Below, in pieces: positions 5,707-39,147 of a stretch of DNA of 39,254 nt. Both the position numbers and the translations under genes were made by a program. The stretch is from positions 1 to 39,254 of the IMG/VR virus record IMGVR_UViG_3300036791_000325. The stretch is one strand, 5' to 3'. Numbering within the stretch: position 1 is the stretch's first letter; every line of letters begins with the position of its first letter. Under the pieces are notes generated by a model. That model saw only the letters and a list, made by a program, of their open reading frames with translations. It did no database searches and was not told where the DNA came from. The DNA comes from a virus.

Positions 5707-6954
5707 ATGCCGATAATGGATAGACTTAGAAAAAGTTGGAACGCCTTCCGTAATTCTAATCAAGAAACTGATGATTACGGTCTTTATGTTGCTAGTCCAT
5801 ATTATGGTTCCGGATCTCCGTCTAGACCTAGGCTTGCGATTTATAGTGAGCGATCAATTGTTTCTTCTATTTATACTAGAATTAGCATTGATGTAGCGGG
5901 TCTCGTTATAAAACATATCAAAATTGATAAAGATGGACGATACATGGGCGATGTTCCTAGTGCTTTAAATGAATGTCTTAAATGGCAACCAAATATTGAC
6001 CAAACTCCTAGGCCATTTAGGCAAGACATTGCCATGACACTTTTTGATAGAGGTGTTGCAGCGGTAGTTCCAGTTGATACTACTAGAAATCCACAAAACA
6101 CTCAAATTTTTGATATTTATAGTCTAAGAGTTGGCGAAGTTGTTAGTTGGTATCCTAAACATGTGCGTTTAAGTGTTTATAATGAAAACCAAGGTAGGCG
6201 TGAAGAAATTACTTTGGAAAAAAGATTTGTAGCTGTTATTGAAAATCCGTTGTATTCAGTTATGAATGAGCCAAACTCAACTCTTCAACGATTGATTAGA
6301 AAACTTTCGCTTCTTGATGCTGTGGATGAACAATCAGGTTCGGGTAAATTAGACATAATAATTCAGCTTCCTTACGTTATTAAATCTGAAGCTAGAAGAC
6401 AGCAAGCAGAGAAGCGACGAGAAGACATTGAATTTCAACTTAAAGGGAGCCAGTACGGCATTGCCTACACCGATGGCACCGAGAAGATTACTCAGCTTAA
6501 TCGGCCAGCTGAGAATAACCTTCTTAAGCAAGTCGAGTATCTTCAAAACATGCTGTACAACCAACTTGGTCTTACCGAAGAGGTCATGAATGGTACAGCT
6601 AATGAAGAAACCATGCTAAATTATTTTAATCGTACCATTGAGCCAATAGTTGATGCTATCATAGAATCTATGCAAAGAGCGTTTCTTGGTCCTAGTGGTT
6701 CTAGAGGTGATGAGCGGATCCAATACTTTAGAGATCCATTTAAGTTGGTGCCAGTTACTAATGTAGCTGAAATTGCTGATAAGTTTACTAGAAATGAAAT
6801 TCTTTCAGCAAATGAAATTAGAGACTTTCTTGGAATCAAACCTTCGGATGATCCAAAAGCAGATAAACTTATAAACAGCAATATGCCACAAGCAACTCCA
6901 GTTCCAGCTCCAGGACCTAGCTCTCTTGAAAGGATCAGTCAAAATGGAAGCTGA
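5707..6954 (+). CDS. Portal protein
   Basis: 415 residues after AGGGAGGTGA. The sequence has the usual HK97-type portal layout: an N-terminal segment with SIVSSIYTRISIDVAG, a mixed clip/wing region, then RREDIEFQLKGSQYGIAYTDG, the long stem helix region ENNLLKQVEYLQNMLYNQLG, and a crown region with LTEEVMNGTANEET. It forms the dodecameric DNA channel at the capsid vertex. It lies between terL and the protease-capsid gene, the standard position. The last bases overlap the next start at 6944. Confidence 0.9.
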   Translation: MPIMDRLRKSWNAFRNSNQETDDYGLYVASPYYGSGSPSRPRLAIYSERSIVSSIYTRISIDVAGLVIKHIKIDKDGRYMGDVPSALNECLKWQPNIDQTPRPFRQDIAMTLFDRGVAAVVPVDTTRNPQNTQIFDIYSLRVGEVVSWYPKHVRLSVYNENQGRREEITLEKRFVAVIENPLYSVMNEPNSTLQRLIRKLSLLDAVDEQSGSGKLDIIIQLPYVIKSEARRQQAEKRREDIEFQLKGSQYGIAYTDGTEKITQLNRPAENNLLKQVEYLQNMLYNQLGLTEEVMNGTANEETMLNYFNRTIEPIVDAIIESMQRAFLGPSGSRGDERIQYFRDPFKLVPVTNVAEIADKFTRNEILSANEIRDFLGIKPSDDPKADKLINSNMPQATPVPAPGPSSLERISQNGS

Positions 6955-9488: not shown

Positions 9489-10355
9489 ATGCCCGCACTA
9501 GTTTGGGATCTTGTTGGTGATCGTTTCTACGAAACTGGCATTGACCATGGCGTTCTTTATATTCCAGACGCTGATGGTGTTTATGCTAGTGGTGTTCCAT
9601 GGAATGGTCTCACAACCGTAACTGAAAGCCCTAGTGGAGCTGAACCAAATGCTCAATACGCCGATAACATCAAATACCTGAACCTCATTTCAGTTGAGGA
9701 ATTCGGTGCTACAATTGACGCATTCACTTATCCTCCTGAGTTTTCAGAATTTGATGGTCTTGGTGTTCCTACACCAGGCGTGTTTGTTGGGCAACAGCCT
9801 CGTAAAACGTTTGGGCTGTCGTATCGTAGCAGAATTGGCAATGATCTTTCAGGCGATAGTTACGGTTATAAACTTCATCTTGTTTATGGATGTATTGCTA
9901 CTCCATCGGAGAAAGCTTTTAACACAGTTAACGATTCTCCTGAAGCCATTGCTTTCAGTTGGACTATCTCTACAACTCCTGTTCCAGTATCCAATTATAA
10001 GCCAACTTCATTGATGGTAGTTGATTCGACCATGGTCGACAAAGCTGGTCTTGCATCCCTTGAGGCCGAACTTTATGGAGGCGATGCATCAGAGGCCAAG
10101 CTTCCTCTTCCAGATGAGGTAATTACCCTCTTGGGGGTCAACCTTGCCACTGGCGCAACATCCGGTGCACCAGGAACTTGGACTCCTCCTGGAGCCGCTC
10201 CTCCATCAAATGTTCCTGCTTTGCAAGCATCTCTTATTGCCGCCGCACCTACTACTCCTTGGGTAACTGGAGAGTATGTTCAAACTGGAGCTAGTGGAGT
10301 TGCTGGCCAAGCTTATTGGGATGGAACAGCTTGGACTTCTGGAAAAGCTCCTTGA
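9489..10355 (+). CDS. Major tail protein
   Basis: 288 residues after AAGGAG. The first 215 residues form the tube-subunit domain, beginning ALVWDLVGDRFYETGIDHGVLY. The C-terminal part from about residue 220 is Ala/Pro/Gly-rich and ends in a small domain (TGEYVQTGASGVAGQAYWDG) that may stick out from the tail. It is a paralogue of the protein at 10933, which lacks this tail and has another C-terminal extension. It would polymerise around the tape measure. Confidence 0.8.
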   Translation: MPALVWDLVGDRFYETGIDHGVLYIPDADGVYASGVPWNGLTTVTESPSGAEPNAQYADNIKYLNLISVEEFGATIDAFTYPPEFSEFDGLGVPTPGVFVGQQPRKTFGLSYRSRIGNDLSGDSYGYKLHLVYGCIATPSEKAFNTVNDSPEAIAFSWTISTTPVPVSNYKPTSLMVVDSTMVDKAGLASLEAELYGGDASEAKLPLPDEVITLLGVNLATGATSGAPGTWTPPGAAPPSNVPALQASLIAAAPTTPWVTGEYVQTGASGVAGQAYWDGTAWTSGKAP

Positions 10356-10378: not shown

Positions 10379-10921
10379 ATGCTCAAAATTATTATTCTTG
10401 GAACCGAATACTTCAATGAAGAGACAGAAACTTTCGAATCTGTTGGAGACTTTGAATTGAAGTTAGAGCATTCTCTGATCTCACTGTCAAAATGGGAGTC
10501 GATTCACCAGACCCCGTTTTTAACAAGCCAACCAAAAACTACACGAGAAATTTTTTCTTATATTGAATCAATGATTATTACTAAAAGTTATCCAGAAAAT
10601 TTGTTTAATAGACTTAGTAAACAAAACATAGAGGATATTAACAATTATATTGAGTCTAAAGAATCAGCAACAACCTTTGGCTCAATGCCAGAAAGAAAAG
10701 GTAGAGGCGAAGTAATTACGGCAGAATTAATTTATTATTGGATGGTTGCATTTCAAATTCCATTCGAATGTGAAAAGTGGCATCTTAATAGATTATTTGC
10801 TTTAATACGTATTTGTAACATCAAGAATACAAAACCAACAAAGATGAGTCGAAACGAGATCGCGCAGAGAAATAGAGAGCTTAACGATAAGCGTCGAGCG
10901 GAACTTAACACAAGAGGTTGA
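10379..10921 (+). CDS. Tail assembly chaperone-like (Gp15-type) protein
   Basis: 180 residues. The ATG at 10379 follows GGAGATTGGAGA; an earlier in-frame TTG lies inside the ribosome site. The features LKIIILGTEYFNEETE, LEHSLISLSKWESIHQTPFL, ELIYYWMVAFQIPFECEKWHLNRL and the following RICNIKN are typical of a family between major tail protein and tape measure in Gram-positive phages, thought to act as a tail assembly chaperone. The basic C terminus ends at a TTGA overlap with the region before the next gene. No programmed frameshift into the next gene was seen. Confidence 0.55.
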   Translation: MLKIIILGTEYFNEETETFESVGDFELKLEHSLISLSKWESIHQTPFLTSQPKTTREIFSYIESMIITKSYPENLFNRLSKQNIEDINNYIESKESATTFGSMPERKGRGEVITAELIYYWMVAFQIPFECEKWHLNRLFALIRICNIKNTKPTKMSRNEIAQRNRELNDKRRAELNTRG

Positions 10922-10932
10922 TTGGAGTCCAA

Positions 10933-11760
10933 ATGACTGCACTTGTCTGGGATGAAACTGGGAAACACTTTTATGAGACTGCTGTTAGTAAGGGCGTTTT
11001 TTATGATTCATCCGGTATTGGAACCTCTTGGAACGGCCTTACTTCTATTGAAGAAAATGTATCAAATTCAGTTCAACCAATTTACTTTGACGGAATTAAG
11101 TTTAATGACATTGTAACAAATGGGGATTTTTCAGGAATTTTAAAAGCGTGGACTTTTCCTGATGAATTTCTTCCATATGAAGGAATTATAGAAGAGCAAA
11201 CTGGTTTTTTCATTGCAGATCAACCAACAAGTAGATTTGGTTTATCATATCAAACTAAACTTGGAAACGATATTGAAGGATTAGAATACGGTTACAAAAT
11301 TCATCTTTTGTATAATCTGACTGCTCTTCCATCGCAAAGAACATATCAAACTTTGACACAAGATGTAAGCCCATTGGAATTTGAATGGACTATTACTGGA
11401 ATTCCGGAATCTATTGAGAATTATAGACCTACAGTTCATGTTATATTTGATAGTACAAAATTGGATAGTTGGCTTCTTGAAGATTTAGAAGGAATTATTT
11501 ATGGGGACGAGGATAGCGATGCTTATCTTCCTCCATTAAAGGGTCTTGCTACATTTATCAGGAAATGGGATCGTCTTATCATTACTGATCATGGTGATGG
11601 CACATGGAGTGCAGAATCGGCTCGAGAAGGTCAAATCATTATGCTGGATGATACAACGTTTGAAATTACAGCAGACACGGCAATTTATTTGGATCCCGAT
11701 ACATATACTATAAGTAGCAGCGACAAAAATGAGGAGGATGTAAATACATGGCGACTATAA
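10933..11760 (+). CDS. Second major-tail-protein paralogue
   Basis: 275 residues. It aligns with the protein at 9489 along its first 200 residues: ALVWDETGKHFYETAVSKGVFY against ALVWDLVGDRFYETGIDHGVLY, later RFGLSYQTKLGNDIEGLEYGYKIHL against TFGLSYRSRIGNDLSGDSYGYKLHL. Its C-terminal extension (about 215-275) differs and looks like a small beta domain (TDHGDGTWSAESAREG). It may form a minor ring in the tail tube, decorate the tail, or be an alternative tube subunit. The ATG at 10933 is better placed than the TTG at 10918. Confidence 0.75.
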   Translation: MTALVWDETGKHFYETAVSKGVFYDSSGIGTSWNGLTSIEENVSNSVQPIYFDGIKFNDIVTNGDFSGILKAWTFPDEFLPYEGIIEEQTGFFIADQPTSRFGLSYQTKLGNDIEGLEYGYKIHLLYNLTALPSQRTYQTLTQDVSPLEFEWTITGIPESIENYRPTVHVIFDSTKLDSWLLEDLEGIIYGDEDSDAYLPPLKGLATFIRKWDRLIITDHGDGTWSAESAREGQIIMLDDTTFEITADTAIYLDPDTYTISSSDKNEEDVNTWRL

Positions 11761-13173: not shown

Positions 13174-16100
13174 TGTAGATGAACGTGTTGTCAAGATGAC
13201 CTTTGACAACGCTTCGTTTGAAAGAAGAATAAGCTCCACAATTGACAGTATAAATCAACTGGATAAAGCTCTTCAACTTAAAGGTGCTGCAAAAGGAATT
13301 TCAGAAGTTGGAGACGCCGCCGATCATGTAAATTTGGGTGGAATGGCCGATGCTGTTGAAAACATTAGTCATAAATTCTCTGCTCTAGGTGCAATTGGAT
13401 TTACTGTTATTCAAACCCTTACCAATAAAGGTTTGGGATTTATAGAAAACGTAGGTAAGAAAGCTTTAGGATCTATATTTGAAGGTGGTACTACAAGAGC
13501 TAAAAATCTCGAGCAGGCAAGATTTCTATTTGAAGGTCTTGGTGCTGATGTAGAAGCATCAATGGAAAGCGCAAGAAAAGCTGTAGTTGGTACAGCTTAT
13601 GGTCTTGACGAAGCCGCTAAGACTGCTGCTCAGTTTGGTGGTTCTGGAATTAAAGCTGGCGACGAAATGACAGCCGCTCTTCGTGGCGTTGCTGGTGTTG
13701 CTGGAATGACTGGTAGTTCGTTCTCCGAAATATCTGATATTTTCACTGCTGCTGCCGGCCAGGGTAAAGTAACTGGTTATACCCTAGAACGAATCTCAAT
13801 GCGAGGCATAAATGTTGCCGCACAATTGGGAAAACAGTTGGGAAAGACAGAACCGCAAATTCGCCAAATGGCTCGAGATGGCGAGATTGACTTTAAAACC
13901 TTTGCTAAGGCTATGGACGACGCCTTTGGTAAGCATGCGCAGGAAGCTAATAAGACATATGTAGGTTCTTTAGCTAATATGAAAGCTGCCTTGTCTAGGC
14001 TTGGCGCTGCCTTTATGACCCCCCATTTGACGCAGCAAAGAGATTTGTTTAATGCCATTTCACCTAAGGTGGATGATTTTACAAAGGCAATGAAGCCTCT
14101 AATTAAAACATTTATGGATCTAAAAGGGGTTGCTACTGGAAATCTTATTAAACAAATAAATGGATTGAGTTTTGCTAATTTAACCAAAGCTATTCCTAAT
14201 TTCTCTGCTGGTCTTAAAGAATTATATCAATCTTTTAGTAAAATTCTTAGTATTGCTGGAAAATCATTCAAAGAAATCTTTCCTTCTTCATCAACTTCAA
14301 TTATTATTACACTTGCTAATGCTTTTAAGAAATTGGCTGATCATCTTGTAATAACTAAAGATGCTGCTACTAAAATTGGAACTGTTTTCAAAGGTATATT
14401 TTCTATTCTAAGCATTGCTTGGTCAATTGTAAAAGAAGGCATAAAATTTATTGCTTCATTGGTTGGTGCACTTCTTGGTCTTGGTGGTGGACCAATTAGT
14501 GACATGTTTCTAAAAGTAGCTAATTTCTTCACTGCATTGAATAAGGGAATTGCTTCTCCTGGTAATATAAAGAAATTCTTTGATACTTTAACAAATGCGG
14601 TTAAGGTGCCGATTGCTTTTATCCAAGATCTTAAAGATAAAATTATTTCTTTCTTCAAGAGTGATCCTGTTGATAAAGTTTCACCAGCTTTTGGTAGAGT
14701 TGGCGATAGATTTGCTTCACTAAAAGATGGTTTGGGTAAATTAGGGGATATTTGGGCTCCTCTTTCAAAAGCTTTGGGTAAAGTTGGCGAAGTTCTTAAT
14801 ACTGCTTTACAAAAAATTGGCGGATTTTTCAAAGATCTTGGGAAGAATATTGCTTCATTTATGAAATCAGGAGATTTTAAGCCAGTTCTTGATACAATAA
14901 ATACCGCCCTGCTTGGTGGAATCGCTCTTCTTATTGCTAGATTCCTTAAAGGCGGCATAAATATTAATGTTGCGCAAGGACTTATGGATAAAATTGGCGG
15001 CATGTTTGACCAACTTACTGGTGTGCTTAAAGCAATGGAAACAAACATCAATGCAAGCACTTTAATGAAAATTGCCGAAGCTATGGGCATATTAACACTT
15101 TCTGTTATTGCTCTTTCTTTGATTGATTCGGCTAAATTAACTAAAGCTTTAACAGCAATGGCAGTTGGTTTTGGTGAATTACTTGGTGCATTTGCTATTT
15201 TGCAAAAAGTAACTGGAACTTCAGGATCAGTTAAATTTGCAGCTATTGCTGTTGGATTGCAAATTCTTGCTGGAGCAATGTTAATTCTTTCATTGGCGGT
15301 TGCACTTTTGGCTCAGCTTAGTTGGAATGATCTTGAAAAAGGCATGGGCGCAATACTTATCTTGCTTGGTTCAATGGTTGGAGTGTCGCTTCTTCTTGAA
15401 GGGAAAGGTCCTACTCTAGCTGCTGCAGGCGTTGGAATTATAGGAATTGCAACTGGAATAGCTATATTGGCTGGAGCCGTAAAACTTTTCGGAACTATGA
15501 GTTACGAAGCAATTGGTAAAGGCTTGGCTGGTGTTGCTGGTGGTCTTCTTGTAATTGCAGCAGTTATGAAACTTATGCCTCTAACTATGCCGCTTATAGG
15601 TGTTGGACTACTAATGGTTTCGTTTAGCTTGGATGTTTTAGCTGGCGCAATGAAAAAGATGGCAAAGTTGTCCTGGGGAGAAATTGGCAAAGGTTTGGCT
15701 GGAATTGCCGGGGCTTTAGTTATTATTGCGTTGGCAATGAATCTTATGCCGACAACTATGGTTCTTACTGCTGCTGGATTGCTTCTTGTAGCAATTGCCT
15801 TGCAAGGAATATCTAAAGCTTTAGCGGCTGTTGGTGGATTGTCATGGGGAGAAATTGCTAAAGGTCTTGTAGGTATTGCTGGGGCTTTGGTCCTTCTTGC
15901 AGCGGCTATGTACGTTATGCAAGGCACTATTCTTGGTGCAGTAGCTATGACAATTGCTGCAGCAGCCTTAACTATTCTTATTGGAGTTATTAAAGGATTT
16001 GCTGGAGTAAGTTGGGGAGATTTATTGCATGGACTTGCTGCGCTTGCACTAGCACTTGCTGCAATTGCCTTAGCTTCCATTGCTCTTTCTCCTGCAGTTC

Positions 16101-20053: not shown

Positions 20054-20085
20054 TTCGCAATTTAAACAACTCTTATAATGGAGAC
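20054..20085 (+). promoter_or_regulatory. Phage-type promoter P1
   Basis: TTCGCA at 20054, invariant ACAA six bases later, and TATAAT at 20074, followed by GGAGAC. The gap between the first box and TATAAT is 14 bases. It lies directly before the gene at 20101 and is almost identical to P2 at 20877. Confidence 0.75.
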
Positions 20086-20100
20086 TATTAAAGGAGAATA

Positions 20101-20876: not shown

Positions 20877-20908
20877 TTCGCAATTTAAACAACTCTTATA
20901 ATGGGGAC
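20877..20908 (+). promoter_or_regulatory. Phage-type promoter P2
   Basis: TTCGCA at 20877, ACAA, and TATAAT at 20897 with a 14-base gap, followed by GGGGAC. Over 30 bases it differs from P1 at only one position, indicating recent duplication or strong constraint. Confidence 0.75.
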
Positions 20909-20930
20909 TATATTTGATAAGGAGATTGAA

Positions 20931-21180: not shown

Positions 21181-21212
21181 CTCGCAAAAATTACAACGCA
21201 TATAATGGAGAC
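21181..21212 (+). promoter_or_regulatory. Phage-type promoter P3
   Basis: CTCGCA at 21181 (one mismatch from TTCGCA), ACAA, and TATAAT at 21201 with the 14-base gap, followed by GGAGAC. It starts two bases after the preceding terminator. Confidence 0.75.
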
Positions 21213-21227
21213 TATAAAGGAGAATTA

Positions 21228-21462: not shown

Positions 21463-21494
21463 TTCGCAGAAATTACAACGCATATAATGAGAGA
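21463..21494 (+). promoter_or_regulatory. Phage-type promoter P4
   Basis: TTCGCA at 21463, ACAA, and TATAAT at 21483 with a 14-base gap, then GAGAGA. It begins immediately after a terminator. Confidence 0.75.
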
Positions 21495-21514
21495 ATTACT
21501 ACAAAGGAGTAATA

Positions 21515-21773: not shown

Positions 21774-21805
21774 TTCGCAAAAAAAACAAGGCTTATAGTG
21801 AAGAG
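21774..21805 (+). promoter_or_regulatory. Phage-type promoter P5 (TATAGT class)
   Basis: TTCGCA at 21774, a run of A, ACAA, and TATAGT at 21794 with a 14-base gap, then GAAGAG. It drives a short RNA unit and not a clear protein gene. A near copy is P6, 111 bases downstream. Confidence 0.7.
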
Positions 21806-21877
21806 AGTAAGAAATCCTAAAGTAAAGGATGACGAAGATGGATCGAGACTAAAGATTTTCATCGAGTCTCTTTTTTT
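21800..21877 (+). ncRNA. Candidate small RNA a
   Basis: About 75 bases between promoter P5 and a U-run, without a convincing gene; only a seven-codon frame (ATG ACG AAG ATG GAT CGA GAC stop) follows an AAAGG. Visible stems: ATCCT with AGGAT near 21814, and the terminal stem GAGACT (21845) with AGTCTC (21865), followed by seven T. The bases AAGAGA just after the TATA box can also pair with TCTCTT at the 3' end. Exact 5' end unknown. Confidence 0.6.
21845..21877 (+). terminator. Intrinsic terminator of small RNA a
   Basis: GAGACT and AGTCTC enclose an inner GAT/ATC pair and are followed by TTTTTTT. Confidence 0.8.
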
Positions 21878-21884
21878 CTGCGAG

Positions 21885-21916
21885 TTCGCAAAAAAAACAA
21901 CCCTTATAGTGAGAGG
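21885..21916 (+). promoter_or_regulatory. Phage-type promoter P6 (TATAGT class)
   Basis: TTCGCA at 21885, A-run, ACAA, TATAGT at 21905 with a 14-base gap, then GAGAGG. From CGAGTTCGC to TATAGTGA it is nearly identical to P5. Confidence 0.7.
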
Positions 21917-22027
21917 AAGACGAGACACTAATGTGTAGGTGAAAGACCTACCCGTCTGGTGCAGGAGCTATACTGCAAAATCATAGTTTTAGTTGGGCTA
22001 TGAACCTAAACCTCTCATTTCATTTTT
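21911..22027 (+). ncRNA. Candidate structured small RNA b
   Basis: About 115 bases after P6 with no open frame of useful length. Pairings visible: GAGAGG (21911) with CCTCTC (22011), closing the whole element; AGACG (21918) with CGTCT (21953); inside it GTAGGT (21935) with ACCTAC (21946); TGCAG (21960) with CTGCA (21973); TCATAG (21981) with CTATGA (21998). The 3' end ATTTCATTTTT is U-rich. This is a multi-branched fold. Whether GAGAGG is transcribed depends on the start site. It also lies upstream of the gene at 22054 and could be a leader. Confidence 0.6.
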
Positions 22028-22053: not shown

Positions 22054-22431
22054 ATGGAAAAATTTAAAGATCACATTAAGCGAAATCAAAAGCGTTATAT
22101 TTTTGGTGGGATTGCATTCGCAGGAATTACAACGCTTATAGTGAGAGGACGTCACGCCACTATGCAGAGCGTAGTGGATGGACCTTCGCAGGTTACCGTG
22201 CGTCCTTTCTCACTTTTTTCGAAACAAGACAATCAAATTGTAACAACTATTCATAATTCTACTCGAGGGCATCCAGGCTTTCGTGTTCTAAATCTTGAGC
22301 ATATGATTGATTTTAATACTCAAGGAGAAACAGCAAAAGCTTTTGGTATTTCACCAGCCATGCTTTCAAGTCATCTTAATGGCAAAATTGATAATGTAAA
22401 CGGTTTGCATTTCGAAAGAATAGCGGCGTAA
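22054..22431 (+). CDS. Membrane-anchored protein with NUMOD1-like C-terminal domain
   Basis: 125 residues. A basic N terminus (KDHIKRNQKR) precedes one membrane segment (YIFGGIAFAGITTLIV, about 15-30). The C-terminal third (RGHPGFRVLNLE and then AKAFGISPAMLSSHLNGKIDNVNGLHFERI) resembles the NUMOD1/HTH-like module of phage proteins, with a helix-turn-helix-type core. Codons for about residues 22-55 coincide with a complete TATAGT-class promoter, a hairpin-rich stretch and a U-run (see P7 and small RNA c). The ribosome site AGAAAGAAGATA is weak. The protein is probably real because both flanks look conserved. Confidence 0.65.
   Translation: MEKFKDHIKRNQKRYIFGGIAFAGITTLIVRGRHATMQSVVDGPSQVTVRPFSLFSKQDNQIVTTIHNSTRGHPGFRVLNLEHMIDFNTQGETAKAFGISPAMLSSHLNGKIDNVNGLHFERIAA
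22117..22148 (+). promoter_or_regulatory. Phage-type promoter P7, inside a coding sequence (TATAGT class)
   Basis: TTCGCA at 22117, ACAA, and TATAGT at 22137 with the exact 14-base gap, then GAGAGG. It is read in frame as FAGITTLIVRGR of the protein at 22054. Confidence 0.65.
22143..22219 (+). ncRNA. Candidate small RNA c, embedded in a gene
   Basis: Behind P7 lie CCACTA (22157) paired with TAGTGG (22172), ACCT (22182) with AGGT (22190) around a TCGC tetraloop, and a closing stem GTGAGA-GGACG (22141-22151) with CGTCC-TT-TCTCAC (22201-22213), followed immediately by TTTTTT. The stem pairs 11 bases with a two-base bulge and ends in a textbook U-run. The unit lies wholly inside the gene at 22054. 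A chance fold is possible, but promoter, stem and U-run together are striking. Confidence 0.55.
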
Positions 22432-23442: not shown

Positions 23443-23474
23443 TTCGCAAGATTTACAATCATTATAATGAGAGA
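23443..23474 (+). promoter_or_regulatory. Phage-type promoter P8
   Basis: TTCGCA at 23443, ACAA, TATAAT at 23463 with a 14-base gap, then GAGAGA. It precedes the small gene at 23496. Confidence 0.75.
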
Positions 23475-23495
23475 ACACTAAAAGGAGTGATTGTA

Positions 23496-26474: not shown

Positions 26475-27011
26475 ATGGACGAGCCTCTTGAAAACGCATA
26501 TTTTAAGTGGCTCTGCGCAAAAGTTATACAACCTAAACAACCAAGTACTCCATCGTTAACCTATTGGAAGTTATTGCATATTCTTCATAGTACGGAATTT
26601 GTATGGCTCTTGCAAGGAGATGATAATAGAGCTGCAGATGGTGTAGAACTACGTGGTGAATTTATATTTGAATGTAAAGTATCAGTTGCTCCTGATTGGA
26701 GAAATCTAGGCTGTTCGCTTCTAGAAATGCTTATAGGTTTTTCAAGAAGAGCGCAGTTTACAACTGGCATCCCAGCTCAAGATTGGTTTTGGGAGTTTCT
26801 GGATAATTTGCATCTTATAGATCTTAATGATGGTGCAGATTTCAATGAAGAAGACGTTGAAGATATTCTCGATGGATTTATTTGGAGAACATACAACATG
26901 GATGGTGAGGGGGGTATACTTCCACTTAATAATCCACCTAAAGATCAAAGACATGTTGAAATTTGGTATCAATTCTCCGATTATGTAGTAGACCGAAACA
27001 AAATACCTTGA
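26475..27011 (+). CDS. Conserved phage protein of unknown function
   Basis: 178 residues, starting two bases after the preceding stop. Regions such as TYWKLLHILHSTEFVWLLQGDDNRAADG, LGCSLLEMLIGFSRR, IPAQDWFWEFLDNLHL and HVEIWYQFSDYVV are typical of a family that regularly stands beside phage replication genes. No catalytic motif is recognised. The end lies close before the replication gene. Confidence 0.65.
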   Translation: MDEPLENAYFKWLCAKVIQPKQPSTPSLTYWKLLHILHSTEFVWLLQGDDNRAADGVELRGEFIFECKVSVAPDWRNLGCSLLEMLIGFSRRAQFTTGIPAQDWFWEFLDNLHLIDLNDGADFNEEDVEDILDGFIWRTYNMDGEGGILPLNNPPKDQRHVEIWYQFSDYVVDRNKIP

Positions 27012-27028
27012 CCAGACAAGGGGGTGAT

Positions 27029-30000
27029 GTGGATTTTTACCGAATTAACGTAAAGGAAACTAAAGGTATTCCACAAGCATACCCAGATTGGATTGTAGAT
27101 AGCGTTGATGATTTAATGGTTAGAGGAGGTTCTTTTTATGCTGTCTGGGATGAAAATCATGGGGTATGGTCTACAGATGAATTTGATGTTCGGAGACTTG
27201 TAGATAATGATATTCATGAATTCATAGAGAAATCAAGAACTAAAGGCGCTGTCTTAGAACCTCTTTATACCAGAAATTTCAGTACTGGTAGTTGGGAAAG
27301 ATTCAACAAGTTTGTAAGAAACCTTCCAGACAATGGAAATTATCACCAGTTAGACGAAAACATAACTTTTTCTAACACCGAAACAAAAAAGAAGGATTAT
27401 GTAAGTAAGCGTCTGCCATATTCTTTAAATCCTGGAAAGACGGATGCTTGGGATGAACTCTTAGGTATTCTGTATTCTCCGGATGAAAGAGATAAAATTG
27501 AGTGGGCAATTGGCGCAATCGTTTCAGGAGATTCAAAGTGGATCCAAAAATTTCTGGTATTTTATGGCCCCCCTGGAACTGGTAAATCAACTGTAATTAG
27601 CATTATAGAGAAACTTTTCGAAGGTTATATTTCAACATTTGAAGCTAAGGCACTAACTAGCAATAGCGGTACCTTTGCTATGGAGTCATTTGAAAGTAAT
27701 CCTTTAGTAGCGATTCAACATGACGGAGATTTGTCAAGAGTTGAGGATAACACAAAACTCAATTCTATTGTTGGGCATGACTCAATGAATATTAACGTCA
27801 AGTATCGATCGGCTTTCACAATAAGACCTAATGCTTTCGTAATAGTTGGAACAAATAAACCCGTAAAAATCTCCGATGCAAAAGCTGGAAATACAAGACG
27901 ACTTATTGATGTTCATCCTACTGGAGTAAAAATTGAGCCCAGTCGTTATCATATTCTTGTAGAGAATGTAAAGTATGAACTTGGCCCGATAGCTTTCAAA
28001 TGTTTGCAAAGATATCGTGAGATGGGTAAATTCTATTATGAGAATTATATTCCCACAAAGATGATGATGTTGACCGATACATTCTACAATTTTGTAGAGG
28101 CATATTTTGATGTATTCAAATCTCAGGATGGAATTCAGCTTAAACATGCTTGGGATTTGTACAAACAATATTGCGAAGAAGCAAACATTGTTAAACGTCT
28201 TCAATATCATGAGGTTCGTGATGAGCTAGGGAGTTATTTCAGAGAATTTAAGGATCGGCATATTATGGGGGAAAAAGAATACAGAAGTGTTTATGTTGGA
28301 TTCAAAGGTTTGCCAGAACAAGGTCCCACTCCATTTGTTCCAGATACTTCATATGTGATTGAATTATCAGATTATGTTCCGGTTTATCATGATTCTGCAT
28401 TCAATAGATTATATTTCGATCAACCAGCTCAATTAGCAAAAGATAGCGGTTATCCCAGGTATAAATGGGAAAAAGTAAAGACAGTTTTAGATGAAATTGA
28501 CCCAACAGAACTTCATTTCGTAAAAATTCCAGAACAACACATCGTTATTGACTTCGATCTTGTAGATGAAGATGGTAATAAAGATCTTGAGAGGAACATA
28601 GAGGAGGCCTCAAAATTTCCCCCCACCTATACAGAACTTAGTAAGAGTGGGCATGGGTTGCATCTTCATTATATTTACGAGGGTGATGTTCACGATTTAA
28701 ATCCAATTTACGATGTTGGTGTTGAAATTAAAACTCTTTTAGGTGATGGTTCGCTACGTAGAAAACTAACCAAGTGTAACAATCTTGAAGTAGCAAATCT
28801 CAGTGGTGGACTTCCGAAAAAGGAGAAAAAGGTGATTGAAACCAAAAGTATTCAAAGCGAACGAGGGCTTCGTGAACTAATTGAGAGAAATCTTCGCAAG
28901 GAGATTCATCCAGGAACGAAACCGTCGATTGATTTCATTCACCATATTTTGGAGCAAGCTTATAACGATGGTCTAAGCTATAATGTCGAAGACATGAGAC
29001 CGGTTATATTGGCTTTTGCAGCTAGAAGTACAAATCAAGCATTGGCATGTATCAAACTTGTCCAAACAATGAAATTTGTTGGGAAATTTAACATGCCAGA
29101 AACAGATAGTGATGATAAGCCGCTAATCTTCTTTGATGTCGAAGTATATCCTAATTTGTTTATCGTATGCTGGAAGTATCAAGGATCGCCGACTGTTGTT
29201 AGAATGATTAATCCAAAGGCAGAAGACATTGCGCCGTTGTTTAATCAAAAGCTTGTTGGGTTTAACAATCGTCGATACGACAATCATATTTTGTATGGCA
29301 GATATATGGGGTATAGTCTCGAGGAATTGTTTGACCTAAGTCAGAAAATTATATTTGGTAATAACCCTAATCAAAGCGGAATGTTTGGTGAAGCGTATAA
29401 CATTTCTTATGCTGACATTTACGATTTTAGTTCTAAGAAGCAAGGTTTGAAGAAGTTTCAAATAGAGCTTGGAATTCACCACCTCGAATTGGATTTGGCA
29501 TGGGATGAGCCAGTTCCAGAAGGTGTGTGGGAAAAAGTAGAAGAATATTGTGTTAATGATGTTGTAGCAACAGAAGCAGTATTTGAATCCAGAAAACAAG
29601 ATTTTGTAGCTCGTCAAATCTTGGCTGAATTATCCGGGCTATCAATTAATCACACTACACAGCAACATACTGCGAAAATTATATTTGGAGATGACAAGAA
29701 TCCTCAAAGAAAATTTGTGTACACAGATTTGAGCTTGGAATTTCCTGGTTATCAATTTGATGGAAAGGAAAGTACTTACTGTGATGAAATCACAGGTGAA
29801 GGTGGTTACGTTTATTCCGAGCCTGGTTTTTATACCAACGTTGCGCTTCTGGATGTTGCGAGTATGCATCCTACCAGTATCGAGCGCCTCAATCTCTTCG
29901 GACCTTATACCGAGAAATTCAGTGCCCTTACGGAAGCTCGCATGGCGATCAAGCATAAAGATTACGACAAAGCCAGAGGTTTGCTTGACGGTAGACTCGC

Positions 30001-30790
30001 TAAGTTTCTTGAGCACGCTGAAGACGACGATAAGGGTGCTGAACAACTTGCATACGCTCTCAAAATCGTCATCAATATCGTATACGGCCTTACAAGCGCT
30101 CGCTTTGACAATCAATTCAGAGATATACGGAACAGAGACAACATAGTCGCCAAACGTGGCGCATTATTTATGATCGATTTACGGCACGCCGTTCAAGATA
30201 GAGGATTTCAAGTTGCCCATATTAAGACTGACTCAATCAAAATCCCAAATGCAACTCCCGATATTATTGATTTTGTCATCAAATTCGGAAGGGAGTATGG
30301 TTATACTTTCGAACATGAAACCACCTATGACAGATTTGTTCTTATCAACGATGCGGTATATGTCGCGAGTGTTCATGGTGGCTGGAGCGCTGTCGGAGCT
30401 CAATTCCAGGAGCCTTACGTATTCAAAGAACTCTTTTCGCACGAGCCTTTGGAATTCGATGACCTCTGCGAAGTCAAAAGCGTCACTCAAGGATCCATGT
30501 ATCTCGGTAATGACGAAGACCAACACGATCTAAGCGGCCTTCGACACGTTGGACGTACTGGTAGTTTTATGCCAGTTAGATATGATGGGTATTCACTATG
30601 GCGGGTTAAAGATGGTAAAAAATACCACGTGTCTGGAACAAAGGGGTATCAGTGGATAGAACGAGACGTGGCTAAACATAGAGATTCAATCGATGAACTA
30701 TTTACTGATATGGAATATTTCGATAAATTGAAAATTGATGCAATACGATCCATTGAAAGATTTGTTTCATTCGAAGAACTTGTGTCATGA
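27029..30790 (+). CDS. Fused SF3 helicase, AEP primase and family B DNA polymerase
   Basis: 1253 residues from a GTG at 27029 after GGGGGTGAT; an in-frame ATG at 26963 lies inside the preceding gene. Helicase: Walker A YGPPGTGKST (about 178-187), Walker B VAIQHDGD (about 228) and sensor IVGTNKP (about 272). Primase: IVIDFDLVDEDG (about 506) and SGHGLHLHY (about 540), the two key archaeo-eukaryotic primase motifs. Exonuclease: FFDVEVYPN (about 700), FNNRRYDN (about 745), YCVNDVVATE (about 840). Polymerase palm: DVASMHPTSIE (about 942), KIVINIVYG (about 1012) and KTDS (about 1067), where the usual first Asp of DTDS is Lys. One chain thus carries unwinding, priming, synthesis and proofreading. 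Confidence 0.85.
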   Translation: MDFYRINVKETKGIPQAYPDWIVDSVDDLMVRGGSFYAVWDENHGVWSTDEFDVRRLVDNDIHEFIEKSRTKGAVLEPLYTRNFSTGSWERFNKFVRNLPDNGNYHQLDENITFSNTETKKKDYVSKRLPYSLNPGKTDAWDELLGILYSPDERDKIEWAIGAIVSGDSKWIQKFLVFYGPPGTGKSTVISIIEKLFEGYISTFEAKALTSNSGTFAMESFESNPLVAIQHDGDLSRVEDNTKLNSIVGHDSMNINVKYRSAFTIRPNAFVIVGTNKPVKISDAKAGNTRRLIDVHPTGVKIEPSRYHILVENVKYELGPIAFKCLQRYREMGKFYYENYIPTKMMMLTDTFYNFVEAYFDVFKSQDGIQLKHAWDLYKQYCEEANIVKRLQYHEVRDELGSYFREFKDRHIMGEKEYRSVYVGFKGLPEQGPTPFVPDTSYVIELSDYVPVYHDSAFNRLYFDQPAQLAKDSGYPRYKWEKVKTVLDEIDPTELHFVKIPEQHIVIDFDLVDEDGNKDLERNIEEASKFPPTYTELSKSGHGLHLHYIYEGDVHDLNPIYDVGVEIKTLLGDGSLRRKLTKCNNLEVANLSGGLPKKEKKVIETKSIQSERGLRELIERNLRKEIHPGTKPSIDFIHHILEQAYNDGLSYNVEDMRPVILAFAARSTNQALACIKLVQTMKFVGKFNMPETDSDDKPLIFFDVEVYPNLFIVCWKYQGSPTVVRMINPKAEDIAPLFNQKLVGFNNRRYDNHILYGRYMGYSLEELFDLSQKIIFGNNPNQSGMFGEAYNISYADIYDFSSKKQGLKKFQIELGIHHLELDLAWDEPVPEGVWEKVEEYCVNDVVATEAVFESRKQDFVARQILAELSGLSINHTTQQHTAKIIFGDDKNPQRKFVYTDLSLEFPGYQFDGKESTYCDEITGEGGYVYSEPGFYTNVALLDVASMHPTSIERLNLFGPYTEKFSALTEARMAIKHKDYDKARGLLDGRLAKFLEHAEDDDKGAEQLAYALKIVINIVYGLTSARFDNQFRDIRNRDNIVAKRGALFMIDLRHAVQDRGFQVAHIKTDSIKIPNATPDIIDFVIKFGREYGYTFEHETTYDRFVLINDAVYVASVHGGWSAVGAQFQEPYVFKELFSHEPLEFDDLCEVKSVTQGSMYLGNDEDQHDLSGLRHVGRTGSFMPVRYDGYSLWRVKDGKKYHVSGTKGYQWIERDVAKHRDSIDELFTDMEYFDKLKIDAIRSIERFVSFEELVS

Positions 30791-31875: not shown

Positions 31876-31907
31876 TTCGCAGAAAAAACAAACCATATAG
31901 TGAGAGA
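31876..31907 (+). promoter_or_regulatory. Phage-type promoter P9 (TATAGT class)
   Basis: TTCGCA at 31876, A-run, ACAA, and TATAGT at 31896 with a 14-base gap, then GAGAGA. It drives about 550 bases without a gene. Confidence 0.75.
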
Positions 31908-32004
31908 GACAGGAGGATAGATCCACGAGGTTCGTAAGAACTGAGGAAGCCGAGATAAGACATTACGATGTCGATACGTCGGGGAGCCTGTTAATCTCTT
32001 TTTT
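31902..32004 (+). ncRNA. Candidate structured small RNA d
   Basis: Stems seen: ACAGG (31909) with CCTGT (31987) closing the element, with GAGA (about 31902) and TCTC (31995) extending it; GGA-TCC near 31915; GTTC-GTAA-GAAC at 31930-31941; CCGA (31950) with TCGG (31979) enclosing GACAT-TACG-ATGTC (31959-31972). The element ends in TCTCTTTTTT. It has the same promoter, 5'-3' pairing and U-run as RNAs a, b and c but unrelated interior sequence. Confidence 0.65.
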
Positions 32005-32007
32005 GTC

Positions 32008-32440
32008 GACTGAGCGACGCTAAAAAGGCTTTAAGCTCAGTGCGTGAGGCGCTAAGGGCTTCTGGGAAGTTGATCCTTACTGTCTGTGATGGATGGAGGC
32101 CCGCCCCTTCCCTCTCCATGTCAGACCGCCTCGATAGACTGTGAAGGAAAACACAGAGCGCATTGACTTGATCAGTCAGTGTTCAGGTAAAAAAGAAACC
32201 ACATTCGTAGAGCGTTATAGCTCCGGAGGCAATAGGGTATTTCTCTTGCGAAATAACCGCCAAGAGTTACAAGCAAGATTGTGACCACGAATGGACGACT
32301 TGGTGGGGTGCGCATACCAGCAGACAGGAACTGTGAACCACGCACATCTTCTTGCTAATGCCACTACACGGATACATTAAGAAAGGGGTATCTGTGGCGG
32401 TAGTGCTGTCCGGTCGGGTCGGACCATTGGCAAACCACCA
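32008..32440 (+). ncRNA. Candidate large folded non-coding RNA
   Basis: About 430 bases between the U-run of RNA d and the next gene, with no usable open frame on either strand. Stems visible: ACTGAGC (32009) with GCTCAGT (32035); CTTC-TGG-GAAG; ATGGAG with CTCCAT; CTGTG with CACAG; CATTGACT with AGTCAGTG; CATTCGT (32202) with ACGAATG (32287), closing a four-way junction; GGTATTTC with GAAAT-ACC; GTGCG with CGCAC; ACGGATAC with GTATCTGT. Loop AGCAAGA (32272) matches TCTTGCT (32350), a possible pseudoknot. It may be one RNA with element d. Confidence 0.6.
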
Positions 32441-35303: not shown

Positions 35304-35319
35304 AATATACAAAGTGTCC

Positions 35320-35345
35320 TAAAAAACAACGCATATAACGAAGAG
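35320..35345 (+). promoter_or_regulatory. Degenerate phage-type promoter P10
   Basis: A-run, ACAA, GCA and TATAAC at 35334, followed by GAAGAG, with the same ACAA-to-TATA spacing as the others. The TTCGCA box is missing: the equivalent place reads GTGTCC. It precedes the nucleases and the polymerase-like gene. Confidence 0.45.
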
Positions 35346-35373
35346 AGCGGTAGAATGTCTATTTTTTTACTGG

Positions 35374-35394
35374 TAAGGAGGAAACCATGTAATG
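35374..35394 (+). promoter_or_regulatory. Strong ribosome site leading to an ATG-TAA minimal frame
   Basis: TAAGGAGG is followed at ideal distance by ATG at 35387, which is immediately closed by TAA at 35390. The real gene start ATG at 35392 overlaps this stop (ATGTAATG). Ribosomes would start, stop and possibly restart. Confidence 0.55.
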
Positions 35395-35703
35395 AGAGAA
35401 GCTCAATATCAAGCACAACTTATAAGAAAACTTGAATCTTTATTCCCCGGTTGTTTTGTTTTGAAGAATGATTCTAGCTATAAGCCTGGTATTCCAGATC
35501 TTATAATTTTGTTTTCTAATATGTGGGCTATGCTTGAGGTTAAGCTTTCTGGAATAGCATATCTTCGCCCAAATCAAAATCATTATGTTCAGCTGTTAAA
35601 TACCATGTCTTTTGCGGCATTTATAAATCCGGAGAATGAGGAGGATGTGTTGTATGATCTTCAATGCGCATTCGGATTTATACGGCCACCACGCGTTTCT
35701 TAG
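35392..35703 (+). CDS. VRR-NUC/resolvase-like PD-(D/E)xK nuclease
   Basis: 103 residues. MREAQYQAQLIRKLESLFPGCFVLKNDSS supplies the N-terminal helix; PGIPDLIILFSNMWAMLEVK supplies the catalytic D and ExK pair of the VRR-NUC-type nuclease fold. Likely a structure-specific nuclease such as a junction resolvase acting on replication or packaging intermediates. The end overlaps the next gene by 50 bases in another frame. Confidence 0.75.
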   Translation: MREAQYQAQLIRKLESLFPGCFVLKNDSSYKPGIPDLIILFSNMWAMLEVKLSGIAYLRPNQNHYVQLLNTMSFAAFINPENEEDVLYDLQCAFGFIRPPRVS

Positions 35704-36214
35704 TCCTAGTAGTTATCATTGGATTAATTATACAGATCAAAAGTTAGAGGCAAGATTTATAGCCGCCACGGCAGCTAGAAGAGGAAGTGATTTACACGAG
35801 CTTGCTCATGAAGCAATAAGATTAGGAGTTAAATTATCAAGAGTAAATAGATCATTGGCGACTTATGTCAATGATGCCATAGGTTATAAAATGGAATGCG
35901 ATCAAATTTTATATTATTCAAATAATTGTTATGGCACTGCTGATACAATTTGTTTTCGAAGAAATAAACTTAGAATTCATGATTTAAAAACTGGTATAGT
36001 ACAAACATCAGAGCATCAACTTGAAATTTATGCGGCATTATTTTGTTTAGAATACAGCATTGATCCCTTTGAGATAGAGATTGAGCTTCGTATTTATCAG
36101 AGAGATGAAATCAGAGTGTTTGAATCATATCCAGAAACTATAATGGAAATTATGAATACGATTATAAATTTTGATAAACATATTGAATCTATTAAAGCGT
36201 CCGATCGATTTTAA
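35654..36214 (+). CDS. Cas4/RecB-like PD-(D/E)xK exonuclease
   Basis: 186 residues from the ATG at 35654, nine bases after AGGAGG; an upstream in-frame ATG lies in the ribosome site. RRGSDLHELAHEAI carries the family histidine, CYGTADTICF an Asp, IHDLKTG the D-x-K pair, and EHQLEIYAALF the Q-x-x-x-Y helix. These are the RecB-family nuclease motifs. The four-cysteine iron-sulphur cluster of true Cas4 is not evident. It probably trims DNA ends in replication or recombination. Confidence 0.75.
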   Translation: MIFNAHSDLYGHHAFLSPSSYHWINYTDQKLEARFIAATAARRGSDLHELAHEAIRLGVKLSRVNRSLATYVNDAIGYKMECDQILYYSNNCYGTADTICFRRNKLRIHDLKTGIVQTSEHQLEIYAALFCLEYSIDPFEIEIELRIYQRDEIRVFESYPETIMEIMNTIINFDKHIESIKASDRF

Positions 36215-36226
36215 AGGAGGTGTTTC

Positions 36227-38887
36227 GTGATTCTCAGCGAAGAAGAATATCTAGCTCATTATGGAACGCCTCGTCATTCTGGTCGTTATCCGTGGGGTTC
36301 TAGTGGGTGGGGGGATGCTCATCTTGATGAAACCAACACTCGAAATAAAACCTTTAGCCAGTATGTAAGAGATCTAAAAGAAAAAGGTCTTAGCGAACCT
36401 ATGATTGCACAAGGTATGGGTATGTCAACGACCCAACTTCGTGCAAGAATTTCGATTGAGAAAAATCATCAAAGGCAGTCCGATATTGCTATGGCGCAAG
36501 GATTGAAAGATAAAGGTTATTCTACTAATGCCATAGCTAAAAGAATGGGGCAACCAGAATCAACTATTAGAAATTATTTGAAGGATGGAGAAGCTGCAAA
36601 AGCAGACATTCTTACTTCAACCTCCAATATGCTTAAATCACAAGTTGATGAAAAAGGTTTTATTGATGTTGGAAAAGGTGTAGAAAATTATCTTGGTGTT
36701 AGCTCAACAAGATTAGATACTGCAGTAGAGATGCTTAAAGCTCAAGGTTATGAAGTTCATGCAGTTAATGTAAGACAAATTGCTACCGGTAAAGATACAA
36801 GAATGAAGGTTCTTGGACCACCAGGATCAACACAAAGAGAAGTTTGGCAGAATCCAGATAAGATTCAACAAATAACTAATTACTCTGATGACGGTGGTAA
36901 GTCCTACACAAAAACCACCCCTCCAATAGCGATTGATCCAAAGCGAGTTGATGTTGTTTACAAAGAACAAGGTGGTAGTAAAGCAGACGGTGTAATTTAT
37001 GTTCGTCCAGGAGTTAAAGATGTAGCGCTTGGCGGAGTAAATTATGCTCAAGTTCGTATTAAAGTTGGTGATGGGCATTACTTAAAGGGTATGGCTCTTT
37101 ACAAAGATGGATTGCCCAATGGGGTAGATCTACAATTTAATACATCTAAAAGTGATACTGGTAATAAACTTGATGCTATGAAAGAACTTAAACCAGATCC
37201 GGATCTTCCTTTTGGTTCTATAGTTCGTCAAATTGTAGATAAGCCTGGGGCTTCTAATGCTAAAGTAACCTCCGTTATGAATGTTGTTAATGATGAAGGT
37301 GATTGGGAAAAATGGTCTAGAACTTTATCTTCTCAGATGTTGTCTAAACAAAGCCCAATGCTTGCTAAGTCACAGCTTGATATGACTTATGAACAGAGAC
37401 AAAATGATTATGAGAATATAAAAAATCTTACTAATTCCACTGTTCGTAAAAGATTATTAAATGATTTCGCTGATGCTACTGATTCGGCATCTGTTAATTT
37501 AAAAGCAGCGGCTATGCCAGGGCAGGCTGTTAAAGTTCTTCTTCCTGTATCTACCCTACCTGTTACTCAAATTTATGCCCCCACCTATAAAAATGGTGAC
37601 CGTGTTGTATTGATTAGACATCCTCACGGTGGCACATTTGAGATACCGGAATTAACTGTTAACAACAATCATGCTGAATCAAGAAGACTTCTTGGTGATG
37701 CAAGAGTTGCTATAGGAATTAATCATGAAGTAGCAAAGCATTTGTCTGGTGCAGACTTTGATGGAGATACAGTATTAGTTATTCCAAATAGATCTGGAAA
37801 GATTCAAACTACTCCAGCTCTTGAAGCTCTTAAGAATTTTAATCCACATACAGAATATCCATCTTATCCTGGTATGAAACCATTGCGTAATACACAAACT
37901 GAAATGGGTATTATTTCTAATCTTATTACTGATATGACAATTAAAGGCGCCAGTCATGAGAAGATTGCTAAAGCAATTAAGCATTCAATGGTTGTTATTG
38001 ATTCTGAGAAACACAATCTTGATTATAAACGATCTTATAATGATAATGGAATAAAACAACTTAAAGAAGAATATCAGAGACAACCAGATGGTGGTGGAGG
38101 TGCAGCTACTCTTATCTCTAGAGCAGGAGCTGAGGTACGGGTACCTGAATTTAAACCCCGGTCTCAGAAAACAGGGGGCCCAATTAGTAAGACTACTGGA
38201 GAGAAAGTATACGAGCCAACAGGTAGAGTACATTGGAAGAGTGGTAAGCCAATCACTACAATCACTAAGAGGTTGGCTATTACCTCGGATGCTCGTGTCC
38301 TTTCATCCGGCACCACTATGGAATTGTACTATGCTCAGCATTCTAATAAGCTTAAGACTATGGCTAATGATGCCAGGCTTACTGCAATTAAAACCCCCCC
38401 TTCGAAATACATACCATCTGCTAAGAGGGCGTACCATTCTGAAGTGGCCTCCCTTGATTCTAAATTGGCCCTTGCCAAATCAAACGCCCCCCTTGAACGC
38501 CAGGCTCAATTAATCGCCAATAGTGTAGTAAAGGCTAAGAAGAACTACGATCCTACAATGGATAGTAAGACAGAGACTAAGATAAAGTATCAGGCTTTAG
38601 AAGAAGCTCGACGTCGTACCGGTGCTAACAAGAAGAAGATAGTGATCACTGATAAAGAATGGGAAGCCATCCAGGCTGGAGCTATCAGTGACTCTAAGCT
38701 TAGTGAGATACTAACACATGCCAACATGGATGTAGTTCGTGATCATGCTACACCTAAGGATAAACTACTGATGACTAATGCTAAGACTAACAGAGCTAAG
38801 TCTATGCTTGCGTCTGGTTACACTAGAGCTGAAGTAGCAGCTGCGCTTGGTGTCTCTCTTAGTACATTGGATAGATCAACAGTATGA
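36227..38887 (+). CDS. Putative DFDGD-type RNA polymerase with helix-turn-helix segments
   Basis: 886 residues, GTG start six bases after AAAGGAGG. Residues 8-29 carry LAHYGTPRHSGRYPWGSSGW, a motif of phage structural proteins. Two helix-turn-helix-like units follow (about 54-75 and 97-118). Region 275-310 has HYLKGMALYKDGLPNGVDLQF with K287, similar to a beta-subunit barrel. Region 457-520 has GDRVVLIRHPHGG and then HLSGADFDGDTVLVIP, where D510, D512 and D514 match the metal-binding NADFDGD of RNA polymerase beta-prime. A third helix-turn-helix (GYTRAEVAAALGVSLSTLD) ends the protein. It resembles the YonO and crAss-phage type polymerases. Activity is inferred, not shown. Confidence 0.65.
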   Translation: MILSEEEYLAHYGTPRHSGRYPWGSSGWGDAHLDETNTRNKTFSQYVRDLKEKGLSEPMIAQGMGMSTTQLRARISIEKNHQRQSDIAMAQGLKDKGYSTNAIAKRMGQPESTIRNYLKDGEAAKADILTSTSNMLKSQVDEKGFIDVGKGVENYLGVSSTRLDTAVEMLKAQGYEVHAVNVRQIATGKDTRMKVLGPPGSTQREVWQNPDKIQQITNYSDDGGKSYTKTTPPIAIDPKRVDVVYKEQGGSKADGVIYVRPGVKDVALGGVNYAQVRIKVGDGHYLKGMALYKDGLPNGVDLQFNTSKSDTGNKLDAMKELKPDPDLPFGSIVRQIVDKPGASNAKVTSVMNVVNDEGDWEKWSRTLSSQMLSKQSPMLAKSQLDMTYEQRQNDYENIKNLTNSTVRKRLLNDFADATDSASVNLKAAAMPGQAVKVLLPVSTLPVTQIYAPTYKNGDRVVLIRHPHGGTFEIPELTVNNNHAESRRLLGDARVAIGINHEVAKHLSGADFDGDTVLVIPNRSGKIQTTPALEALKNFNPHTEYPSYPGMKPLRNTQTEMGIISNLITDMTIKGASHEKIAKAIKHSMVVIDSEKHNLDYKRSYNDNGIKQLKEEYQRQPDGGGGAATLISRAGAEVRVPEFKPRSQKTGGPISKTTGEKVYEPTGRVHWKSGKPITTITKRLAITSDARVLSSGTTMELYYAQHSNKLKTMANDARLTAIKTPPSKYIPSAKRAYHSEVASLDSKLALAKSNAPLERQAQLIANSVVKAKKNYDPTMDSKTETKIKYQALEEARRRTGANKKKIVITDKEWEAIQAGAISDSKLSEILTHANMDVVRDHATPKDKLLMTNAKTNRAKSMLASGYTRAEVAAALGVSLSTLDRSTV

Positions 38888-38898
38888 AAGGAGATTGA

Positions 38899-39147
38899 AT
38901 GATTACTAAGTCAGCACTAACTACAATAGACAATCCTCATTCTCCTTTCGATGACTTCTCTGCATGGTATGCCTATGATGTATCAAGTGGATACCATACT
39001 TGTTCATACCTTGCACGAATCGTTAAGCTTTCAGATCAATTAAGTGAAGCTGACGAAGACGTTGCGGTGGAGCTAGCTATCGATGAGATAATAAAGGAAA
39101 ATGTTTCAGGAATTTATAGAAAAATTGTAAAAGAAGTTGAAAATTGA
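38899..39147 (+). CDS. Small conserved phage protein after the polymerase-like gene
   Basis: 82 residues after AAAGGAG. DNPHSPFDDFSAWYAYDVSSGYHTCSYLARI and later ELAIDEIIKEN are typical of a small family that often accompanies the polymerase-like protein in related phages. Acidic, helical, no membrane segment. A partner role for the upstream protein is a fair guess from pairing only. Confidence 0.65.
   Translation: MITKSALTTIDNPHSPFDDFSAWYAYDVSSGYHTCSYLARIVKLSDQLSEADEDVAVELAIDEIIKENVSGIYRKIVKEVEN

Follow-up and report, generated by a model that had tools for sequence, protein, structure and literature searches.

A predicted single-chain two-barrel RNA polymerase and a putative promoter repeated between the non-structural genes of related tailed phages

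The window analysed here is the whole 39,254-nt stretch of virus DNA corresponding to positions 1-39,254 of IMG/VR record IMGVR_UViG_3300036791_000325. Towards its end lies a gene whose product is predicted to be a single-chain two-barrel RNA polymerase, flanked by two nuclease genes and a small gene of family phrog_4303 (Table 1). The cassette of VRR-NUC, exonuclease, polymerase and phrog_4303 genes occurs in the same order in phage Qui, and the phrog_4303 protein is found in 220 related loci. Its model shows a beta-alpha-alpha-alpha-beta arrangement (pLDDT 95.6) for which no fold match was obtained in the PDB, and the protein is possibly a partner of the polymerase. Elsewhere in the window, the head protease and major capsid protein are apparently fused in one 637-aa ORF (6926-8839), a 1275-aa ORF (26963-30790; phrog_4210) holds primase/helicase-like and DNA polymerase parts, and the major tail protein family (phrog_2645) is represented twice, at 9489-10355 and 10918-11760.

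Table 1. Positions of the polymerase gene, its predicted parts, its neighbours, the putative promoter copies and the conserved small RNA in the window.
Feature	Position	Strand	Basis or remark
Putative promoter copy TTCGCA-N6-ACA-N5-TATAATG	20054..20086	+	38.8 bits
Putative promoter copy	20877..20909	+	39.8 bits
Putative promoter copy, behind terminator-like hairpin	21181..21213	+	41.0 bits
Putative promoter copy	21463..21495	+	44.4 bits
Putative promoter copy	21774..21806	+	43.3 bits
Putative promoter copy, would drive conserved small RNA	21885..21917	+	46.8 bits
Conserved structured small RNA, ~107 nt	21911..22017	+	directly after TATAGT; 113 bits with model R1
Putative promoter copy, then hairpin RNA 22143-22209	22117..22149	+	44.8 bits
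Putative promoter copy	23443..23475	+	36.1 bits
Putative promoter copy, then structured RNA 31902-32004 and Pistol ribozyme	31876..31908	+	39.7 bits
Degenerate putative promoter copy (TATAAC, no TTCGCA), upstream of VRR-NUC/exonuclease/polymerase operon	35314..35346	+	30.2 bits
VRR-NUC endonuclease and Cas4-like exonuclease genes	35392..36214	+	directly upstream of polymerase, conserved cassette
Predicted single-chain two-barrel RNA polymerase gene	36227..38887	+	GTG start, 886 aa; conservation, model, fold search
N-terminal motif HYGTPRHSGRYPWGSS, residues 11-26	36257..36304	+	invariant residues in disordered tail
HTH unit 1, about residues 40-73	36344..36445	+	model (H43-52, H57-63, H68-) and alignment
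HTH unit 2, sigma-70 region 4-like, about residues 84-120	36476..36586	+	R115 in recognition helix
Predicted barrel 1 region, residues 241-355, invariant K287	36947..37291	+	strand pattern in model; conservation
Predicted barrel 2 region, residues 434-520, RHPHGG strand and DFDGD	37526..37786	+	conservation, model, fold search, alignment
HTH unit 3, residues 851-885	38777..38881	+	Pfam HTH, model
82-aa protein phrog_4303	38899..39147	+	directly downstream of polymerase

A preliminary description of the gene had drawn attention to the strings HLSGADFDGDTVLVIP, GDRVVLIRHPHGG and HYLKGMALYKDGLPNGVDLQF, all of which are found where it had placed them. The first of these, which contains D510, D512 and D514 and had been matched to the catalytic loop of beta-prime, carries DFDGD at residues 510-514 (metal-loop codons 37754-37768). 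This reading is corroborated by the E. coli beta-prime segment, which aligns at residues 494-518 with 42% identity in a profile alignment that recovers the DFDGD segment alone (24 columns; E 0.002-0.02 as a single comparison). Likewise, HYLKGMALYKDGLPNGVDLQF had been proposed as a beta-like segment with a catalytic lysine, and its K287 (codon 37085-37087) is invariant in all 54 non-redundant relatives of the conservation set (47-84% identity). The invariant positions further include G288, the residues R464, P466 and H467 of the strand GDRVVLIRHPHGG, which had been likened to VLLNRAPT, and D510, F511, D512, G513 and D514. The protein matches PHROG 4291, labelled “RNA-dependent RNA polymerase,” over its full length (residues 4-884; 1191 bits, E 0); the polymerase family is thus already catalogued and not new. 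PHROG 4291 takes in orf75 of Lactococcus phage 1706 as well as proteins of Rhodococcus phage ReqiPepy6, Arthrobacter phages Mudcat and Gordon, Streptomyces phages Rima and Scap1 and Gordonia phage Duffington. Relatives are present in 250 phage records, 249 of which cover at least 80% of the query, and the phages concerned infect Arthrobacter, Gordonia, Streptomyces, Lactococcus, Rhodococcus, Curtobacterium, Microbacterium and Faecalibacterium; many gut Bacillota genomes also hold relatives. Their labels vary between HTH protein, RNA-dependent RNA polymerase and hypothetical protein. The literature searched yielded no description of the function or promoters of PHROG 4291, and a study of Arthrobacter phage clusters AM and AU makes no mention of an RNA polymerase or promoter (PMC5513430).

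Sequence searches against the PDB returned HTH, helical-repeat or coiled-coil matches only and were uninformative on the core, so that a fold search was needed. With an AlphaFold model of the protein (mean pLDDT 83.5), Foldseek found six PDB matches below E 1e-3, namely maize RDR2, QDE-1, P74-26 gp62 (two chains), P23-45 gp64 and Arabidopsis RDR2, all of which are single-chain two-barrel polymerases. The viral fold matches also include P23-45. In the PDB ranking, the cellular large subunits and phi14:2 gp66 come later, from E 0.005, with the gp66 structure at rank 19 (E 0.028). The TM-scores are low (0.25-0.30 of the query), as expected because the core alone is common to both structures. Model and fold search together place two facing barrels in one chain, as judged from the overall match. 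The claim of a two-barrel polymerase, which had been opened to refutation by a model without two such barrels, thereby survives, the best PDB matches all having that fold. We regard the two-barrel polymerase fold as almost certain, and it is highly likely that the protein is an active DNA-dependent RNA polymerase.

Both PHROG and RefSeq name the protein an RNA-dependent RNA polymerase, and its closest folds are indeed the eukaryotic RNA-silencing enzymes QDE-1 and plant RDR2 (E about 1e-7). The Pfam RdRP family also matches 42 of the 54 members weakly (best E 1.9e-4), with the window protein itself reaching 15.7 bits, below the curated cut-off of 23.8. Against an RNA template, the phage has double-stranded DNA and no RNA stage, the folds of the P23-45 and P74-26 enzymes, which are phage transcription enzymes, are nearly as close as those of QDE-1 and RDR2, and the conserved DNA promoter described below suits a DNA template. 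Moreover, the window protein carries three predicted DNA-binding HTH units, and to our knowledge QDE-1 and plant RDR2 are without such units. The name is therefore very unlikely to reflect the function of the protein. Still less credible is an inactive remnant retained as a virion or DNA-binding protein: homologues are annotated as HTH or structural proteins, yet none of the 54 relatives departs from the predicted active-site residues, which speaks against such a loss of function.

Among phage enzymes, YonO of SPbeta is likewise a single-chain polymerase with DxDGD, and its catalytic region aligns in register with that of the window protein over 118 columns, through DxDGD and on into SN..IT (E 0.048). 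The profile similarity obtained with hhalign is not significant (E 0.09 at full length, 0.048 for the catalytic region), so that by these sequence comparisons the protein is not a YonO orthologue. The comparison with YonO made in the preliminary description consequently stands for the single-chain DxDGD type but not for a kinship detectable in sequence (E 0.05-0.09). YonO also differs in its DNDGD loop and four conserved C-terminal Cys, and it transcribes late genes (PMC5467207), whereas the motif of the window avoids the structural module. P23-45 gp64 and P74-26 gp62 share the single-chain two-barrel architecture and match the window protein significantly in fold; however, they comprise about 590 aa as opposed to 886 aa, no sequence match to them was found, and the promoters of P23-45 gp64 are reported to be GC-rich, unlike the window motif.

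Helix-turn-helix units had been noticed at both ends of the protein, and two are indeed found on the N-terminal side and one on the C-terminal side. Pfam HTH matches exceed the curated cut-offs at residues 93-118 and 861-883. The Pfam family “Sigma-70, region 4” matches 54 of 54 members (best 3.7e-11), and its best stretch in the window protein is HTH unit 2. The earlier idea that these units read a promoter gains support from this likeness together with a fitting repeated promoter. In the polymerase of Faecalibacterium phage oengus (L321, L381-L383), an insertion lies within HTH unit 1. The units are preceded by a tail predicted to be disordered (residues 2-40, pLDDT <50), which nevertheless contains the conserved motif HYGTPRHSGRYPWGSS. 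Here, S18, G19, R20, Y21, P22 and G24 are invariant in the 54 relatives, and the motif is kept by 240 of 247 relatives. A search for GRYPWG in other phage proteins revealed that this tail motif is essentially confined to the polymerase family.

The repeated element was first seen in a repeat search as copies sited between genes. It reads TTCGCA-N6-ACA-N5-TATARTGAGA and is present in the window in nine strong copies and one degenerate copy, all on one strand; a matrix scan yielded these 10 sites on the plus strand at 30-47 bits, compared to a maximum of 17.7 bits in random sequence. The copies lie between non-structural genes and none occurs in the structural module. It is this motif and its genomic placement that are new here.

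Each of 21 related virus records contains the motif, in 1-17 copies, while the reversed pattern gave none with mismatches allowed. With up to two mismatches, 34 copies are found in the 113-kb genome of Qui, 17 in ReqiPepy6, 12 in Rima, 10 in Gordon, nine each in Duffington and Psst2, seven each in Mudcat and Eevee, five in contig89 and four in Scap1. Polymerase-bearing phages of Streptomyces, Rhodococcus, Gordonia, Arthrobacter and Curtobacterium thus share the element, and the Lactococcus phages P162, 1706 and CHPC971 carry altered forms. Across 135 sites from 17 genomes, all of which lie on the coding strand, the consensus consists of TTCGCA, six mostly A/T bases, ACA, five bases, TATARTG and RRA. 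A ribosome site and start codon follow within 70 nt at 76% of the sites (median 24 nt), and TTTT precedes the motif within 22 nt at 44% of the sites as opposed to 5.5% expected, which suggests terminator-promoter junctions. No copy was found between the terminase and minor tail protein genes in 20 genomes. De novo motif finding missed some genomes owing to crude gene calling, and matrix scanning recovered the motif there; in Faecalibacterium phage oengus, which has the polymerase, the motif is undetectable.

An exact-motif scan of IMG/VR returned at least 120 stretches, compared to none for the reversed motif. Among the matches listed, 35 motif-bearing contigs exceed 34 kb. A near-full polymerase is present in 25 of them and an edge fragment in one. 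The remaining nine still bear several motif copies, and the eight inspected apparently end before reaching the locus of the polymerase. The motif follows the whole phage lineage, in which terminase, DNA polymerase and RNA polymerase are found together, so that tracking of the polymerase gene alone by the motif is inseparable from common descent.

Several motif copies precede small structured RNAs without a clear ORF. One of these, a conserved RNA of about 107 nt, was captured by a model built without any promoter sequence. Across the collected phages this model gives 18 significant matches and a weak one, with ReqiPepy6 and Qui among the carriers. At 14 of these 19 places the RNA starts 0-2 nt past TATART (12 as searched, two by eye, one base off), and in the remaining five it has the motif 11-20 nt ahead of it. 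Within the 18 sequences, covariation supports 20 of the 26 pairs, and the signal collapses in slid controls; 98% of the pair cells are paired, a percentage inflated by fitting the alignment to the structure. No Rfam family was found for this RNA in the stretches scanned, and it is a candidate for a new RNA family. A hairpin RNA at 22143-22209 (fold z -5.9) and a structured RNA at 31902-32004 (z -3.1) both close with the GAGA after TATAGT. Furthermore, at 15 of 210 sites (28 genomes) the six bases from the G after TATART complement a stretch just before a downstream T run, and the count of such complementarity peaks at offset 0, with 8-15 from -3 to +4 and 0-3 elsewhere. A Pistol self-cleaving ribozyme (44.7 bits, above the gathering score) is located at 32004-32071, downstream of the motif copy at 31876 and within 585 nt that hold no clear gene; locus L357 has another at 14495-14552.

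As the covarying small RNA begins directly after the motif, the motif is very probably a promoter whose start lies nearer to TATA than sigma-70 would place it. TATAAT is also the -10 hexamer of sigma-70, which starts RNA 6-8 nt after it. This identity raises the question of whether the motif is a host promoter, read by the host's RNA polymerase carrying its principal sigma factor and perhaps helped by a phage activator binding TTCGCA, while the phage polymerase works elsewhere. The presence of the polymerase without the motif in oengus would fit such a scheme, and co-inheritance of motif and polymerase with the whole genome means that their co-occurrence alone does not tie them together. However, no conserved hexamer corresponding to the -35 element TTGACA occurs at 16-18 nt from the -10 element in the 135 sites; instead, 14 nt that include a fixed ACA separate TTCGCA from TATAAT, and GAGA is conserved after TATART. 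The same element also recurs in phages of Streptomyces, Rhodococcus and, in altered form, Lactococcus. Finally, to judge from the folds of the small RNAs, transcription would start 0-3 nt past TATA(R)T, and a start this close to TATA favours the phage polymerase. We therefore consider reading by the host enzyme rather unlikely and the window polymerase the probable reader of the motif. A contact of R115 in HTH unit 2 with the CG of TTCGCA was considered and rejected: P162, in which the box reads TTTATG, lacks both R115 and TTCGCA, but 1706 and CHPC971 retain R115 with TCACA, so that the link amounts to a single event.

Packaging of the polymerase in the virion is suggested by the deposition of its homologue in Lactococcus phage 1706, orf75, as a “structural protein” (EU081845), a database label that is repeated for ReqiPepy6. 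Together with the promoter on non-structural genes and the conserved tail motif, this label makes it a reasonable proposal that the enzyme travels in the virion, in which case HYGTPRHSGRYPWGSS would be a possible packaging tag. The two-barrel polymerases phi14:2 gp66 of a crAss-like phage and P23-45 gp96 are carried in virions and possibly delivered in the same way, although their chains are much longer (2166 and 5002 aa) and the gp66 fold match is weak. Conversely, the enzyme could be made after infection and be absent from the virion, like P23-45 gp64, a non-virion enzyme (PMC10770324), with another role for the N-terminal motif; the degenerate copy before its own operon would suit a start by host polymerase. 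The 1706 label, the conservation of a motif within a disordered segment and the strong motif copy at the polymerase's own operon in some relatives all speak against this. Packaging has about an even chance of being correct, and synthesis after infection is a serious if somewhat less favoured possibility. A further motif, H-H-G-x-x-G-(M/Q)-K-W-G (DUF7211-like), is carried by several genes in the vicinity of the polymerase in gut prophages (L302, L303, L310, L242, L274 and others), and the window contains one copy of the form HHG-(I/V)-x-G-(M/Q)-K-W-G (3544-3590) in the gene before the terminase. It is possibly a shared targeting tag, and what connects it with the tail of the polymerase goes no further than resemblance.

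Taken together, the best explanation is a packaged one-chain DNA-dependent polymerase that reads the motif for non-structural operons, which as a whole we hold to be fairly likely. Its direct basis consists of the predicted fold, the invariant residues, the motif, its placement and the RNA ends taken from covarying structure, from which we infer catalysis, motif reading and packaging. In this view, the tailed phage would make its own DNA-dependent RNA polymerase with both barrels in one chain: two double-psi barrels would form the core, with Mg2+ held by D510, D512 and D514 and K287 standing opposite. Its own HTH units, one of them sigma-70 region 4-like, would replace a sigma factor and read TTCGCA-N6-ACA-N5-TATARTGAGA, with RNA beginning at, or no more than about 3 nt from, the RTG following TATA. 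In this way, the phage enzyme would transcribe the operons of non-structural genes together with several small structured RNAs, and the structural genes would be left to another polymerase, probably that of the host. The polymerase would probably enter the virion via its conserved N-terminal tail and be delivered along with the DNA. Tentatively, a small siphophage may thus package, by an N-terminal tag, a sigma-free one-chain two-barrel polymerase with a sigma-4-like domain; reading a single promoter conserved among phages of two bacterial phyla, this enzyme would begin transcription of non-structural genes and small RNAs independently of the host polymerase.

The study of YonO left open which promoter is recognised by one-chain polymerases and whether they need extra factors (PMC5467207). 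The PHROG 4291 family offers a compact polymerase/promoter pair in this respect: with built-in HTH units, a strong candidate promoter and an inferred start, sigma-independent recognition becomes directly testable, and about 250 sequenced, often culturable phages as well as a deposited hint of packaging are available for such tests. In hundreds of records the gene goes by “HTH protein” or “RNA-dependent RNA polymerase,” and these observations argue for renaming it, within a phage group whose members, with polymerase and motif, infect very different bacteria.
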